NCBI RefSeq assembly: GCF_003851725.1
Contig: NZ_BHYL01000096.1
Location: 1-34,157 of the forward strand
Reading direction: 5' to 3'
Length of the DNA stretch: 34,157 nt
From: Cellulomonas algicola
Lineage (GTDB): Bacteria > Actinomycetota > Actinomycetes > Actinomycetales > Cellulomonadaceae
Made by a program: the position numbers and the translations under genes. Numbering within the stretch: position 1 is the stretch's first letter; the number at the start of each line of letters is the position of its first letter. Positions 11,735 through 15,879 of the stretch are shown here, piece after piece. The notes under the pieces were generated by a model. It was given only the letters and a program-made list of their open reading frames with translations. It had not been told where the DNA came from and made no database searches.

Positions 11735-11989
11735 GTGCGCATCCTCACCGCGACCGAAGCCTCACGGGGCTTCTCCGACCTCCTCGACGCCGTCGAGCGG
11801 GGGGAGACGGTCATGGTGACGCGCGGCAACCGGACGATCGCGCGCATCGCTCCCGTCCCCGCCGGCACAGGTCGGAGCCTGCGCGCGGCGCTCGACAGGG
11901 TGCCCCGGCTCGACGACGCGTTCGAGGCCGACATCGCGGAGGCGACCGCACTGCTGACCAGCGAGACGGACCCGTGGGTCGGCGACTGA
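11735..11989 (+). CDS. Phd/YefM-family antitoxin
   Basis: This 84-residue protein has the Phd/YefM N-terminal DNA-binding fold: ILTATEASRGFSDLLDAVERGETVMVTRGNR over residues 3-33, with the typical variable C-terminal tail that wraps the toxin. It should neutralise the VapC-like toxin encoded next and repress the operon. The GTG at 11735 has no Shine-Dalgarno, and a -10-like hexamer lies just upstream, so translation may be leaderless. Its last 16 bases overlap the toxin gene, which ties the two together. Confidence 0.9.
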   Translation: MRILTATEASRGFSDLLDAVERGETVMVTRGNRTIARIAPVPAGTGRSLRAALDRVPRLDDAFEADIAEATALLTSETDPWVGD

Positions 11990-12372
11990 TCCTCGACACC
12001 ACGACCCTCATCGCCTACGAGCGCCGCGCGTTTGACACGACCGTCCTCGACGAGGACGACCTCGCGATCGCGGCGGTGACCGTGGCCGAGTTCCGCAGCG
12101 GCATCGAGCTCGCCGACACCGCGGCCCGAGCGGCCGACCGCGCGCGCGTCCTCGACGCGGTGCTGGAGAACGTCACCGTGCTCGACTACACCGAGCACAC
12201 GGCGACGCAGCACGCGCGCCTGCTCGCGCACGTGCGCCGCACCAGCGTCCCCCGGGGCGCGCACGACCTGATCATCGCGGCCCACGCCGCGCACACCGGC
12301 CGGGTCCTCGCGTCCCGGGACGCGCGCGCCCGGTTCGCCGACCTGCCTGGTGTGGAGGCCGTCAGTCTCTGA
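11974..12372 (+). CDS. VapC-family PIN-domain toxin (ribonuclease)
   Basis: This 132-residue PIN-domain protein carries all four acidic positions of the fold: Asp8 in LILDTT, Glu39 in VAEFRSG, Asp98 in AHDLIIAAHA and Asp116 in ASRDARARF. VapC toxins are magnesium-dependent endoribonucleases that cut tRNA or rRNA when freed from their antitoxin. The GTG at 11974 lies inside the antitoxin gene, giving a 16-base overlap, so the toxin is made only when the antitoxin is translated. With an intact catalytic set I expect it to be active. It converges on metZ with a 32-base gap. Confidence 0.92.
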   Translation: MGRRLILDTTTLIAYERRAFDTTVLDEDDLAIAAVTVAEFRSGIELADTAARAADRARVLDAVLENVTVLDYTEHTATQHARLLAHVRRTSVPRGAHDLIIAAHAAHTGRVLASRDARARFADLPGVEAVSL

Positions 12373-12404: not shown

Positions 12405-13676
12405 TCAGCCGGCCGCGACGTCCAGGGCCTGGGTGAGGTCGTCGCGGAGGTCCTCGACGTCCTCGAGCCCGACGGACAGGCGGACGGTCGACTCGGCGAT
12501 CCCGACAGCGGCGCGGCCCTCGGGTCCGAGCTTGCGGTGCGTCGTCGTGGCGGGGTGCGTGACGATCGACTTGGTGTCGCCGAGGTTGTTCGACAGGTCG
12601 ATGATCCGCAGCGCGTCGAGGAACGCGAACGTCGTCTTCTTCGCGACGTCGGGCGTCGCGCCCTCGGGGACGCGCAGCTTGAGCGTGACGACCGTGCCGC
12701 CGCCGGTCTGCTGCGCGCGCGCGAGGTCGTGCTGCGGGTGCGACGGCAGGAACGGGTAGCGGACGGACGCGATCGCGGGGTGCTGCTCGAGCCAGCCGGC
12801 GAGCGTCAGGGCGGACGCGGCCTGGTGCCGCACGCGCAGCGACATCGTCTCGAGGCCCTTGAGCAGCACCCACGCGTTGAACGGGGACAGCGACGGGCCG
12901 GTGTTCCGGATGAGCGTCTGGACGGGCCCGCGCACGTACTCGGTCGAGCCGAGGATCGCGCCGCCGAGCACGCGGCCCTGGCCGTCGATGTGCTTGGTCG
13001 CGGAGTAGACGACGACGTCGGCGCCGAGGTCGAGCGGCCGGGACAGGACGGGCGTCGCGAAGACGTTGTCGACGACGACGGTCGCACCGGCGGCGTGCGC
13101 GAGCCGGGACACGGCGGCGATGTCGACGAGGTCCTGCATCGGGTTGGACGGCGTCTCGAAGAACACGACGTCGGCGGGCGTCGAGAGCGCCTCCTCCCAC
13201 TGCGACAGGACGTGCCCGTCGACGTAGTCGGTGCGGACGCCCCACTTGGCGAGGATCTCGTCGAAGATCACGACGCTCGACCCGAAGAGCGCGCGGGCGG
13301 ACACGATGCGCGAGCCCTGCTGGACGAGCGCGGCCAGGGCGGTGAAGACGGCGGACATGCCGGTCGCGGTCGCGTATGCGGCCTCGGCGCCGTCGAGCAG
13401 GCGCAGGCGCTCCTCGAACGTCGAGACCGTCGGGTTGGAGTAGCGCGAGTAGAGGAACCGGTCGACGTCGCCCGCGAACGCGGACTCGGCCTGCGCGGCG
13501 GAGTCGTACACGTACCCCTGGGTGAGGAAGAGGCCCTCGGACATCTCCTGGAACTCGGACCGCACGAGCCCGCCGCGGACGGCGAGCGTGTCGGGCCGCA
13601 GCGTCGAGCGGTCGACGGAGCGGTCGTCCCAGTCGCCGGGACCGGGCACGCGGCCCGGCACGCGGTCGGCGGTCAC
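12405..13676 (-). CDS. metZ: O-succinylhomoserine sulfhydrylase
   Basis: This 423-residue PLP enzyme of the Cys/Met metabolism family makes homocysteine from an O-acylhomoserine and sulfide, a direct route to methionine. Seen: YSRYSNPT at 76-83, TATGMSA near 103-109, VVVDNVFATP with Asp203, and SATKHIDGQGR with the PLP lysine at 228. The DGQGRVLGG context and length favour MetZ over MetB or MetY. GTG at 13676 overlaps the rhodanese stop as GTGA, so the two are translationally coupled. The pair lies behind a SAM-binding riboswitch, which explains its control: end-product SAM should lower expression. Confidence 0.92.
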   Translation of the reverse strand: MTADRVPGRVPGPGDWDDRSVDRSTLRPDTLAVRGGLVRSEFQEMSEGLFLTQGYVYDSAAQAESAFAGDVDRFLYSRYSNPTVSTFEERLRLLDGAEAAYATATGMSAVFTALAALVQQGSRIVSARALFGSSVVIFDEILAKWGVRTDYVDGHVLSQWEEALSTPADVVFFETPSNPMQDLVDIAAVSRLAHAAGATVVVDNVFATPVLSRPLDLGADVVVYSATKHIDGQGRVLGGAILGSTEYVRGPVQTLIRNTGPSLSPFNAWVLLKGLETMSLRVRHQAASALTLAGWLEQHPAIASVRYPFLPSHPQHDLARAQQTGGGTVVTLKLRVPEGATPDVAKKTTFAFLDALRIIDLSNNLGDTKSIVTHPATTTHRKLGPEGRAAVGIAESTVRLSVGLEDVEDLRDDLTQALDVAAG

Positions 13677-14086
13677 AGCGTCGTCCAGGGCAGTCCCTCG
13701 GCGCGCCACCCGACGTGCCCGCGCTGACCGTCGGGGCCGACGTCGCCCTCGAACCCGCGCAGCACGTTGTACGCGGGGCCGAACCCGGCGGCGGTCGCGG
13801 CCTGCGCGGCGGCGACCGAGCGGACCCCGGAGCGGCACAGGAAGACGACGGGCCGCTCGTCGCCGGGCGTCAGGCCCGCCTCGGCGAGCTCGTCGACGAA
13901 CCGGGGGTTGAGGCCCTGCGGGGTCGTCCACTCGACGAGCGCCGCACGGCCGCCGATCTCGGTGGCGTCGGGCACGCCGATCAGCCGCCACTCGGCGTTG
14001 GTGCGCACGTCGACGAGCAGGGCGCGCTCGTCGGACGCGAGCAGGTCCCACGCCTGCTGCGGGGTCAGGTCACCGGCGTACGGCAT
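13673..14086 (-). CDS. Rhodanese-like sulfurtransferase
   Basis: This single-domain rhodanese of 137 residues has the fold's LLVDVRTNAEW at 23-33 and the active-site loop FLCRSGVRS with catalytic Cys84. Such proteins carry persulfide sulfur and pass it to acceptors. It is the first gene of the riboswitch-controlled operon with metZ; it may supply sulfide equivalents to MetZ or accept sulfur from the cysteine-desulfurase-like enzyme encoded divergently. The ATG at 14086 has GGAGGA five bases upstream (14097-14092), and this site is part of the predicted P1 helix of the upstream aptamer. Confidence 0.92.
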   Translation of the reverse strand: MPYAGDLTPQQAWDLLASDERALLVDVRTNAEWRLIGVPDATEIGGRAALVEWTTPQGLNPRFVDELAEAGLTPGDERPVVFLCRSGVRSVAAAQAATAAGFGPAYNVLRGFEGDVGPDGQRGHVGWRAEGLPWTTL

Positions 14087-14095
14087 CGCGATCCT

Positions 14096-14184
14096 CCATC
14101 GGTCCTGGCGGTAGCACCCTCGCCCGGCGGACCGGGGGGTTGCTGCGGCGTCGTCGAGCCAGATCTCTCGGCCGCTCTGGATGG
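14096..14184 (-). ncRNA. SAM-I-clan riboswitch (SAM-I or SAM-I/IV variant) for rhodanese-metZ
   Basis: The minus-strand leader has the SAM-I clan core. P1 is CCATC (14184-14180) with GATGG (14100-14096). P2 is GCGGC (14175-14171) with GCCGC (14149-14145). The joining sequence is GCAACC, followed by P3 and GGGTGCTA. The loop TCTGG (14163-14159) can form the pseudoknot with CCAGG (14108-14104). A P4 hairpin, normal in SAM-I, is not evident, which is like the SAM-I/IV variant. The 3' strand of P1 overlaps the Shine-Dalgarno of the rhodanese gene, so SAM binding should hide it and stop translation. Confidence 0.88.
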
Positions 14185-14192
14185 TTGGCGCG

Positions 14193-14223
14193 ATGCTACG
14201 CGCGCCGGCGGCCGACGCGCCAA
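14193..14223 (-). promoter_or_regulatory. Promoter for rhodanese-metZ leader
   Basis: TAGCAT on the minus strand (14198-14193) fits a -10 TANNNT, with TTGGCG (14223-14218) as a weak -35 at a 19-base spacing. A start near 14186 would begin the RNA just before P1 of the aptamer, as expected for a riboswitch leader. Confidence 0.5.
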
Positions 14224-14269
14224 GGAGTGGACACGCTGTCCCGTCATCCGAGACGGCCGACGTGTCCCG

Positions 14270-14299
14270 TTGACACATCACGGGCGCCGACGGAACCCT
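14270..14299 (+). promoter_or_regulatory. Promoter for the SAM-IV leader
   Basis: TTGACA at 14270-14275 is a consensus -35. At an 18-base spacing AACCCT (14294-14299) is only a weak -10. A start near 14306 would fall at the edge of the SAM-IV aptamer. CCCGT (14266-14270) and ACGGG (14280-14284) form a small inverted repeat over the -35. Together with the minus-strand promoter this explains the 377-base gap between the two genes. Confidence 0.5.
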
Positions 14300-14307
14300 C
14301 GTCGTCA

Positions 14308-14390
14308 GGTCATGAGCGCCAGCCCGAAGCCCCGGCTCGCTGGCCGGCAACCCTCCTCCGCGGTGGGGTGCCCCGGGTGACGACCAGGCC
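14308..14390 (+). ncRNA. SAM-IV riboswitch upstream of the cysteine-desulfurase-like gene
   Basis: The sequence closely follows the SAM-IV consensus as I know it. P1 pairs GGTC (14308-14311) with GACC (14382-14385). P2 pairs GCCAGC (14318-14323) with GCTGGC (14339-14344). The core GGCAACC is followed by a P3 and GGTGC. CCCGG (14331-14335) can pair with CCGGG (14373-14377) as the conserved pseudoknot. It sits 74 bases before the start of the aminotransferase-V gene. A 3' hairpin at 14437-14451 directly before the Shine-Dalgarno may be the expression platform. SAM should lower expression; that is inferred from the class. Confidence 0.92.
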
Positions 14391-14436
14391 GACCGCCGCC
14401 CGGCGGACGGCAAGCGCGGGGCCGGCCGTCGGTGCC

Positions 14437-14451
14437 GGGTCCCACGGACCC
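14437..14451 (+). promoter_or_regulatory. Hairpin abutting the ribosome binding site, possible expression platform
   Basis: GGGTCC (14437-14442) and GGACCC (14446-14451) form a perfect six-base-pair stem with loop CAC. The GAGGAG ribosome site (14454-14459) follows at once. Upstream, CCGCCG (14393-14398) and CGGCGG (14401-14406) form another stem. Between them they could relay the SAM-IV state to translation. Confidence 0.4.
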
Positions 14452-14463
14452 GTGAGGAGCACC

Positions 14464-15879
14464 ATGTCCGTCATCGCCGAGACCACGTCCTGTGCCGAGG
14501 TCGACGCCCCGGTGTCGACCCGCGAGCCCGTCCCCGCCCTGCTGCCCGTCGTCGGCGGCGACACGACCGTCCCGCTCGTCGACGGCACCCAGCGGGTCTA
14601 CGCCAACCTCGACTACGCCGCGAGCGCCCCCGCACTCGAGTCCGTCGCCGCCCGCGTCACCGAGGTCCTGCCGCTGTACGCGTCGGTGCACCGCGGCGCC
14701 GGGTACCTGTCGCAGGTGTCCACGGCCCTCTACGAGTCGTCCCGGCAGAGCATCGCGCGGTTCGTCGACGCGCGCCCCGACGACGTCGCGATCATCACGC
14801 GCAACACGACCGACTCGCTCAACCTGCTCGCGGGTGTCGTCCCCGCCGGTGGCAAGGTCCTCGTCCTCGACGTCGAGCACCACGCCAACCTGCTGCCGTG
14901 GGTGCAGTCGTCGCAGCGGCACGGCAACACCACGACGATCCTCCCGATCGGCCGGACCGTCGCCGAGACCCTCGACGCGTTGCGCACCGAGCTCGCGACC
15001 CAGCCCTACGCGATCCTGACGATCACGGGCGCGTCCAACGTGACGGGCGAGTCGCTGCCGATCGAGGAGGTCGTGGCGCTCGCGCACGCCGAGGGCACCC
15101 GCGTCGCCGTCGACGGCGCGCAGCTCGTCCCGCACCGCGGCTTCTCGCTCGCCCGCACCGGCGCCGACTACGTCGCGTTCTCCGGCCACAAGACGTACGC
15201 GCCCTTCGGCGCGGGCGCGCTCGTCGGTCGCCGCGACTGGCTCGACACCGGCACGCCCTACCTGGCCGGTGGCGGCGCCGTGCGCGACGTGCGCGCCGAC
15301 CGGACCGTCTGGCAGCCCGCCCCCGCGCGGCACGAGGCCGGGTCGCCCAACGTCATCGGCGCGATCGCGCTCGCGGAGGCGTGCGACCGGCTCGCCGCCC
15401 TGCCCGCCGGCGCGCTGCTCGCGCACGAGGAGGCGCTCCGCGCCCGCCTGGTCGACGGCCTGGGCACGATCGACGGCGTCGAGGTCGCGCGCATCTGGCC
15501 CGACTCCGCGGACCCGGTCGGCGTCCTCACGTTCACCGTCCCCGGCCACGACCCCGGCCTCGTCGCCGCGTACCTGTCGGCCGAGCACGGCATCGGCGTC
15601 CGCGACGGCCGGTTCTGCGCGCACCCGCTCCTCGCGCACCTCGGCGCGTCCGGCGGCGCGATCCGCGCGTCCGTCGGCGTCGGCACGACGAGCGAGGCCG
15701 TCGACCGCCTCGTCGACGCGCTGCGCCGCTACCTCGCCGACGGCCCGACCGCCCGGTACGACGTCGTCGACGCCTGCTGGACCGTCGTCGACGACACCCG
15801 CCCCCTCGTGCAGGTCCACGGCCTCGACGCCCTCGCCGCCACCGCGGCCGCCGCCTGCGGTCCGGCCCTCGACGACTGA
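14464..15879 (+). CDS. Class V aminotransferase, cysteine-desulfurase-like (SufS/CsdA type)
   Basis: This 471-residue PLP enzyme fits the SufS/Csd group. Seen: EHHANLLPW with the PLP-stacking histidine near 140, VAVDGAQ with Asp217, FSGHK with the PLP lysine at 243, and RFCAHP with Cys385 at the position of the sulfur-accepting cysteine. Such enzymes take sulfur from cysteine as a persulfide, or in some branches act as cysteine lyases. It is longer than SufS, with a 45-residue N-terminal and about 40-residue C-terminal extension. ATG at 14464 has GAGGAG four bases upstream. Control by a SAM-IV riboswitch ties it to methionine/SAM supply rather than to Fe-S assembly; it is not next to suf genes. 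The true substrate is open. Confidence 0.87.
   Translation: MSVIAETTSCAEVDAPVSTREPVPALLPVVGGDTTVPLVDGTQRVYANLDYAASAPALESVAARVTEVLPLYASVHRGAGYLSQVSTALYESSRQSIARFVDARPDDVAIITRNTTDSLNLLAGVVPAGGKVLVLDVEHHANLLPWVQSSQRHGNTTTILPIGRTVAETLDALRTELATQPYAILTITGASNVTGESLPIEEVVALAHAEGTRVAVDGAQLVPHRGFSLARTGADYVAFSGHKTYAPFGAGALVGRRDWLDTGTPYLAGGGAVRDVRADRTVWQPAPARHEAGSPNVIGAIALAEACDRLAALPAGALLAHEEALRARLVDGLGTIDGVEVARIWPDSADPVGVLTFTVPGHDPGLVAAYLSAEHGIGVRDGRFCAHPLLAHLGASGGAIRASVGVGTTSEAVDRLVDALRRYLADGPTARYDVVDACWTVVDDTRPLVQVHGLDALAATAAAACGPALDD

Follow-up and report, generated by a model that had tools for sequence, protein, structure and literature searches.

A conserved divergent pair of SAM-I-like and SAM-IV riboswitch aptamers in Cellulomonas and its relatives

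Introduction

Why should there be several riboswitch classes for one ligand? The question can be put at a single locus of Cellulomonas algicola, where aptamers of two SAM classes occur in the same cell, 120 nt apart and facing one SAM pool. The DNA analysed here, referred to as the window, is the whole of a 34,157-nt stretch (contig NZ_BHYL01000096.1). A first-pass annotation of it had proposed that two SAM riboswitches of different class stand back to back, about 120 bases apart, and had asked why one divergent locus should use both. A conserved pair of this kind provides a natural test of why a cell keeps two sensors for one signal, and because both classes are found in one cell, and natural counter-examples exist in which the same operon is under the other class or the same class is used twice, the question becomes testable.

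Results

Two SAM aptamers of different class lie back to back

When the whole window was compared by cmscan with all 4227 Rfam families, exactly two matches reached the gathering score, a SAM-IV aptamer on the plus strand and a SAM-I aptamer on the minus strand (Table 1). The two are divergent, and the gap between them (14188–14307) confirmed the distance that had been proposed. The extent originally given for the two elements, 14096–14390, was in the right place but slightly short at both ends, as the matches run from 14093 to 14422. Among the Rfam SAM covariance models, a significant match was available on each strand, and RF01725 gave none. The gene assignment of the first-pass annotation (rhodanese-metZ on the minus strand, a cysteine-desulfurase-like gene on the plus strand) was likewise borne out, by PF00581, NF005870 and PF00266. 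The desulfurase-like protein scored under the cut-off of every NCBIfam model that it matched; its best-matching solved chains carry the name cysteine desulfurase, and the closest named relatives of its gene, among the best 80 of 237, are those of Cellulomonas fimi (97%) and C. biazotea (93%). A PIN-domain (VapC-like) gene is located just past metZ, at 11974–12372, on the strand opposite to metZ.

Table 1. Features of the divergent locus, with positions in the window.
Feature	Position	Strand	Basis or remark
metZ, O-succinylhomoserine sulfhydrylase	12405–13676	-	NF005870, 722 bits (cut-off 618); TIGR01325, 597 bits, also over cut-off
Rhodanese-domain protein, first gene of the operon under the SAM-I-like aptamer	13673–14086	-	PF00581
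SAM-I-like aptamer (RF00162), without P4, leader of rhodanese-metZ	14093–14187	-	56.9 bits, cut-off 44.4, E 9.3e-11
GATGGAGG: P1 3' strand GATGG fused to Shine-Dalgarno GGAGG	14093–14100	-	GATGG at 14096–14100
P1 5' strand CCATC, pairing with GATGG at 14096–14100	14180–14184	-	Alignment of pair loci
Putative -10 element TAGCAT, directly 5' of the SAM-I-like aptamer	14193–14198	-	TANNNT pattern in close pairs
Possible -35 element TTGGCG, 19-nt spacer	14218–14223	-	By eye, weak
Imperfect dyad GTCCCGTCATCCGAGAC, middle of the shared promoter region	14238–14254		Alignment of pairs
TTGACA, putative -35 element of the SAM-IV transcript	14270–14275	+	TTGAC pattern in close pairs
SAM-IV aptamer (RF00634)	14308–14422	+	103.7 bits, cut-off 38, E 3e-18, model positions 1–116
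Shine-Dalgarno GAGGAG of the desulfurase-like gene	14454–14459	+	31 nt past the aptamer
SufS-like class-V PLP enzyme (cysteine-desulfurase-like)	14464–15879	+	PF00266 (Aminotran_5), E 2e-82

The divergent pair is conserved across genera

The conservation of the arrangement was assessed in 221 genomes of the family to which the window belongs. SAM-I was detected at E <= 0.001 in 201 of them (over the cut-off in 195) and SAM-IV, at the same threshold, in 198; by set arithmetic, 194 genomes have both classes. Using the best 150 matches of each class, which makes the pair count a lower bound, at least 55 of the 221 genomes, from 11 genus groups, were found to carry SAM-I and SAM-IV on one contig within 1.5 kb of each other. 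All 55 pairs were divergent. On the SAM-IV side every pair had the desulfurase-like gene, and on the SAM-I side every pair had a rhodanese match, followed by metZ in 54 (in the other, L078, the contig ends before metZ). The gap was 97–165 nt in 36 of the 55 pairs, and 97–129 nt in 35; of the 19 pairs with longer gaps 12 were inspected, and in 11 of these another reading frame lay inside the gap.

A second survey started from the named loci with a relative of the desulfurase (the best 80 of 237), in which aptamers were detected by sequence signatures that recovered 55 (SAM-IV) and 54 (SAM-I) of the 55 pairs found with the covariance models. Among these best 80 of 237, 76 had the SAM-IV signature 5' of the desulfurase gene and 64 had the SAM-I signature no more than 2.5 kb away on the other strand. 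Sixty loci had both, and in 50 of these the gap was less than 200 nt. The loci with both signatures include representatives of Cellulomonas, Oerskovia, Sanguibacter, Pengzhenrongella, Timonella and Isoptericola; Cellulosimicrobium lacked the SAM-I side in 10 of the 11 loci present among the best 80.

Divergent SAM-I/SAM-IV pairs also occur outside the family. One, L129, has a gap of 1588 nt and the desulfurase gene, another, L147, has a gap of 157 nt on a contig that ends before the SAM-IV gene, and a third (L217, 604–1941; gap 164 nt) comes from another family of the class. On the SAM-I side of L217, the best reading frame starts some 120 nt downstream and is 2OG-Fe(II) oxygenase-like. The E-values together with the conservation across genera exclude chance as the source of the aptamer pair, and the divergent pairing of SAM-I and SAM-IV in Cellulomonas and its relatives is thus confirmed as real and conserved.

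The minus-strand element is a SAM-I-like aptamer without P4

The minus-strand element had been assigned to the SAM-I clan, and it does score as SAM-I, but the assignment has to be amended in that the P4 helix is absent: the window sequence has 2 nt where the RF00162 model has 18. To judge its structure we collected 107 SAM-I-like aptamers from the window's family and its order. Ten of unsuitable length were excluded from the pair counts, and the 97 usable sequences gave 62 that were distinct. Every pair of P1, P2a and P2b was a standard pair in all 62, compensatory changes were present in both P2a and P2b, and the GCAACC and GGTGC cores were kept. The pseudoknot PK-1 (L2/J3-4) had standard pairs in 98.4% of cells over the same 62 aptamers, against 25–69% for a slid control. 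The segment from GGTGC to the P1 3' strand (J3/4) was uniform in length, being 13 nt in 102 of the 107 aptamers, 12 nt in two and 14 nt in three; L177 and L156 have 13 nt, L164 is among the five with 12 or 14, and the aptamer of L217, from another family of the class, has 12. In genus group g8 the SAM-I aptamers (L161, 897–1017; L160, 992–1093) score under the Rfam cut-off, and their PK-1 reads GTGGC/GCCAC instead of CTGGC/GCCAG, a compensatory change.

A SAM-I/IV identity for the minus-strand element was also considered and rejected, as a search of the entire genome with RF01725 at E <= 10 gave nothing. The search of the genome with the SAM-IV model (RF00634, E <= 0.001) gave five matches, none of them at 14093–14187 on the minus strand. 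With P4 missing and the SAM-I/IV model unmatched in the genome, we refer to the element, on the basis of its sequence, as a P4-less SAM-I-like aptamer and not as a canonical SAM-I. The lack of P4 is given for SAM-IV as a difference from SAM-I in one report (PMC6890682). Our literature search on SAM-I and P4 found no description of a P4-less SAM-I; the search was incomplete, and absence from print is not claimed.

P1 of the SAM-I-like aptamer runs into the ribosome-binding site

In all 55 pair loci the CCATC/GATGG P1 helix runs directly into the Shine-Dalgarno purine run, and in 53 of them an ATG follows 3–8 nt past it. With the ribosome-binding site carried on the P1 3' strand, the SAM-I-like switch should block translation directly. 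For actinobacterial SAM-I, direct occlusion of this site has been described as a mechanism (PMC2258182). At L082, L083, L087 and similar loci, inspection by eye found a frame similar to the beginning of the L155 DUF1737 protein between SAM-I and the rhodanese gene, so that the ribosome site in P1 there belongs to that frame.

The expression platform on the SAM-IV side

The SAM-IV aptamer is complete, with a full-length match to the model that includes P5 and the 3' tail, and lies 41 nt from the start codon. By eye, in the window sequence alone, the strands of PK-1 (CCCGG/CCGGG) and PK-2 (CCGCG/CGCGG) are complementary. How the aptamer might act on the gene was examined by partition-function folding of the 55 SAM-IV leaders. 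Enforcing P1 lowered access to the ribosome site by more than 0.1 in 7 of the 55 and raised it in 17, and thus caused no consistent loss. Complementarity of the linker to the ribosome site was weakly above that of shuffled sequences (27% of the 55 at p<0.1), and that of the linker to P1 was not above shuffles (9% of the 55 at p<0.1). The motif GGTC was found in 31 of the 55 linkers, compared with 21.7 expected. A consensus scan of 14085–14470 detected no site resembling an intrinsic terminator. Neither folding with and without P1 nor the comparison of duplexes with shuffled sequences brought out a clear expression platform for SAM-IV.

For Streptomyces clavuligerus, a premature transcript predicted to hold SAM-IV has been reported for a class-V PLP gene, and the fall in read-count ratio at that gene is among the most extreme (PMC8269248). 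This gene may be an orthologue of the desulfurase-like gene, judging from its description and from the wide association of SAM-IV with this family; SAM-IV adjoins desulfurase relatives in most class-level regions (see below), so that it is perhaps the same gene. Premature transcription stop is the best lead for the SAM-IV mechanism.

The shared promoter region

A strict sigma-70 consensus scan of 14085–14470 found no promoter. The close pairs do have promoter-like hexamers at fixed places. Of the 36 close pairs, 31 have a TANNNT motif in the 16 nt preceding SAM-I (control 1/36), and all 36 have TTGAC 36–38 nt 5' of SAM-IV, with a second, nearer copy in two of them (control 0/36). Because these hexamers abut both aptamers at fixed places, transcription of each mRNA probably begins right at the 5' end of its own aptamer.

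Between the two putative promoters is the dyad GTCCCGTCATCCGAGAC, the right half of which is better conserved in the alignment than the left, and which may be a transcription-factor site. The genome contains one exact match to the dyad pattern and four with one mismatch, and the reversed-pattern control gave one. With five sites in total at no more than one mismatch against this control, the candidate of a genome-wide regulon for the dyad was set aside, as no clear regulon emerged.

Genes found under each class

Leaders outside the 55 pairs were sampled for their target genes, the samples being biased to high-scoring matches and hand-picked to spread over genera; some of these leaders may belong to pairs with an unlisted partner. 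Downstream genes were identified by third-position GC bias and clustered by blastp, and 10 representatives together with L004 were matched to Pfam. The 34 SAM-I leaders preceded 25 metF-like, three metE-like, three rhodanese/metZ, two SfnB-like genes and one MetQ/NlpA-like gene. The 39 SAM-IV leaders preceded 29 desulfurase genes, five symporters of the SDF family, two luciferase-like monooxygenases, an FMN reductase, a nitroreductase and an ABC permease. Not one blastp cluster contained both classes among these 34 and 39 sampled leaders. The window's own genome has SAM-I before rhodanese-metZ and before metF, and SAM-IV before the desulfurase gene and four non-met genes, of which the nitroreductase-like one has a weak match (40.4 bits). 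In the sampled leaders, SAM-I is thus mostly associated with methionine synthesis and SAM-IV mostly with the desulfurase and other non-met genes. There are exceptions to this division, in that two SAM-I leaders stand before SfnB-like oxidoreductases of sulfur acquisition; the one of these that was tested fell under the cut-off of that model. A sulfur role for several SAM-IV targets (the SDF symporters, the nitroreductase and the ABC permease) is a guess. L164 and L165 share a contig on which a metF-like gene is followed by a metE-like gene; a separate SAM-I leader precedes each of the two genes, and these leaders are about 1 kb from each other on the same strand.

The classes look exchangeable among relatives

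Regions around metZ were examined at the level of the order, in two batches of 40 and 7 taken from 68 matches outside the window's own genome, three of the 40 coming from the window's own family. In the batch of 40, SAM-I was over the cut-off in 11; 12 regions were rescanned at a relaxed threshold and seven more SAM-I matches, at 30–44 bits, were obtained among them. One region had SAM-IV in the metZ leader and 21 had neither class at the thresholds used. The second batch gave five SAM-I and two SAM-IV. The metZ genes led by SAM-IV (L155, L307 and L308) are those of the three genomes of family f6 with a metZ match, and in L155 (4255–5497) the operon under the SAM-IV leader reads DUF1737-rhodanese-metZ. 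With SAM-IV leading metZ in f6 and SAM-I elsewhere, either class can serve the same operon.

For the desulfurase, 20 of 26 non-own matches were examined at the level of the class. SAM-IV was directly 5' of the desulfurase relative in 18 of the 20 regions (the exceptions being L222 and L223), and in the roughly 1.9 kb upstream metZ was present only in L221, where it is on the same strand. In one region, L208 (117–452), two divergent SAM-IV aptamers are separated by 101 nt, with the desulfurase relative to one side and a luciferase-like monooxygenase gene to the other. Since the f6 metZ operon is under SAM-IV and one SAM-IV/SAM-IV pair exists, SAM-I and SAM-IV look exchangeable over evolution.

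Discussion

From the aptamers, their gene order, their conservation and the overlap of P1 with the ribosome site, all of which were obtained by computation, we infer SAM binding, the OFF direction, the start sites and the mechanism of each switch. Taken jointly, the locus is with high probability best explained as two independent SAM-sensing OFF switches that form the 5' ends of divergent mRNAs and share one short promoter region. Each transcript would most likely begin right at the 5' end of its aptamer. In the minus-strand RNA, SAM would stabilise P1 of the P4-less SAM-I-like aptamer, the 3' strand of which holds the rhodanese-metZ ribosome site, so that methionine synthesis would be blocked directly at translation when SAM is high. 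In the plus-strand RNA, SAM bound by the SAM-IV aptamer would lower expression of the cysteine-desulfurase-like gene. The locus would join a SAM-I set concerned mostly with methionine synthesis to a SAM-IV set made up of the desulfurase and further genes, most of them sulfur-supply-like.

It might be asked whether one of the aptamers has decayed, or binds a ligand other than SAM. The minus-strand match is just 12.5 bits over the cut-off and has no P4, and in some relatives SAM-I scores under the cut-off. Against this, P1, P2a, P2b, PK-1 and both core motifs are kept in the 62 distinct aptamers with compensatory changes, and the genes downstream are methionine genes, so that we regard such a loss or change of function as very improbable.

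Why two classes are used, as the first-pass annotation had asked, is answered in part by the conservation of the pair, by the association of class with gene and by the extension of the SAM-IV/desulfurase link to other families of the class, but the class swap in f6 and the SAM-IV/SAM-IV pair speak against a need for two different classes at such a locus. The best account is that the class at each side reflects the history of its gene, with functional specialisation possible. The met genes would have brought along SAM-I and the desulfurase gene SAM-IV, the divergent joining of the two already regulated units being a frozen accident between interchangeable classes, and we consider this reading rather likely. 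It fits the regular occurrence of SAM-IV 5' of the desulfurase at the class level, where only L221 has metZ, the finding that other families have SAM-I before rhodanese-metZ with no close desulfurase relative within the 2.5–5 kb examined, and the f6 swap together with the SAM-IV/SAM-IV pair. It sits less easily with the narrow gap of 97–129 nt in 35 of the 55 pairs and the spread over many genera, which suggest that the shared region itself is selected, and with the fact that the samples from the window's own family showed no class swap. Under specialisation, the classes would differ in affinity, speed or level of action, and methionine synthesis and sulfur supply would be shut off at different SAM levels or times. 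Class does follow gene in the family sample, the pair recurs in 11 genus groups (at least 55 pairs), and SAM-I looks directly translational, whereas the Streptomyces SAM-IV leader gives a premature transcript (PMC8269248). However, rhodanese-metZ is under SAM-IV in the three f6 genomes with a metZ match, the class-level relative L208 has SAM-IV on both sides, and SAM-I, SAM-I/IV and SAM-IV are reported to have one common ligand pocket (PMC6890682); specialisation as the reason for the two classes is therefore doubtful. Equally tentative is a division of labour in Actinobacteria in which the P4-less SAM-I gates translation for methionine synthesis and SAM-IV gates transcription for sulfur supply, the two being joined at the divergent locus; if true, a single SAM pool would thereby set two thresholds or two time scales.

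As to known systems, the minus-strand element resembles SAM-I (S-box, RF00162) in its core, P1, P2a and P2b with the internal loop, PK-1 and P3, and actinobacterial SAM-I in having the ribosome site in P1, as in direct translation attenuation (PMC2258182). It differs from the S-box in lacking P4 and in standing back to back with SAM-IV. The P4-less form, present in every aptamer examined in the order, is a structural variant of interest for structure and affinity. The plus-strand aptamer resembles SAM-IV (RF00634) in matching the model over its full length and in its position 5' of a class-V PLP gene, as in S. clavuligerus (PMC8269248); no difference was seen in the aptamer, and the divergent partner alone sets it apart.

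In the literature searched, two SAM classes at one locus were found described only as tandems, in one report (PMC9481103), and a divergent SAM-I/SAM-IV pair was not found described; this search too was incomplete and absence from print is not claimed. That report gives 149 tandem arrangements of SAM-II with SAM-V, and seven of SAM-II with SAM-I/IV plus two inverted (PMC9481103). The window pair is like these in having two classes for one ligand at one locus, but the tandem systems lie 5' of a single open reading frame, whereas the window pair is on opposite strands and would serve separate mRNAs. The pair itself is built of known classes.
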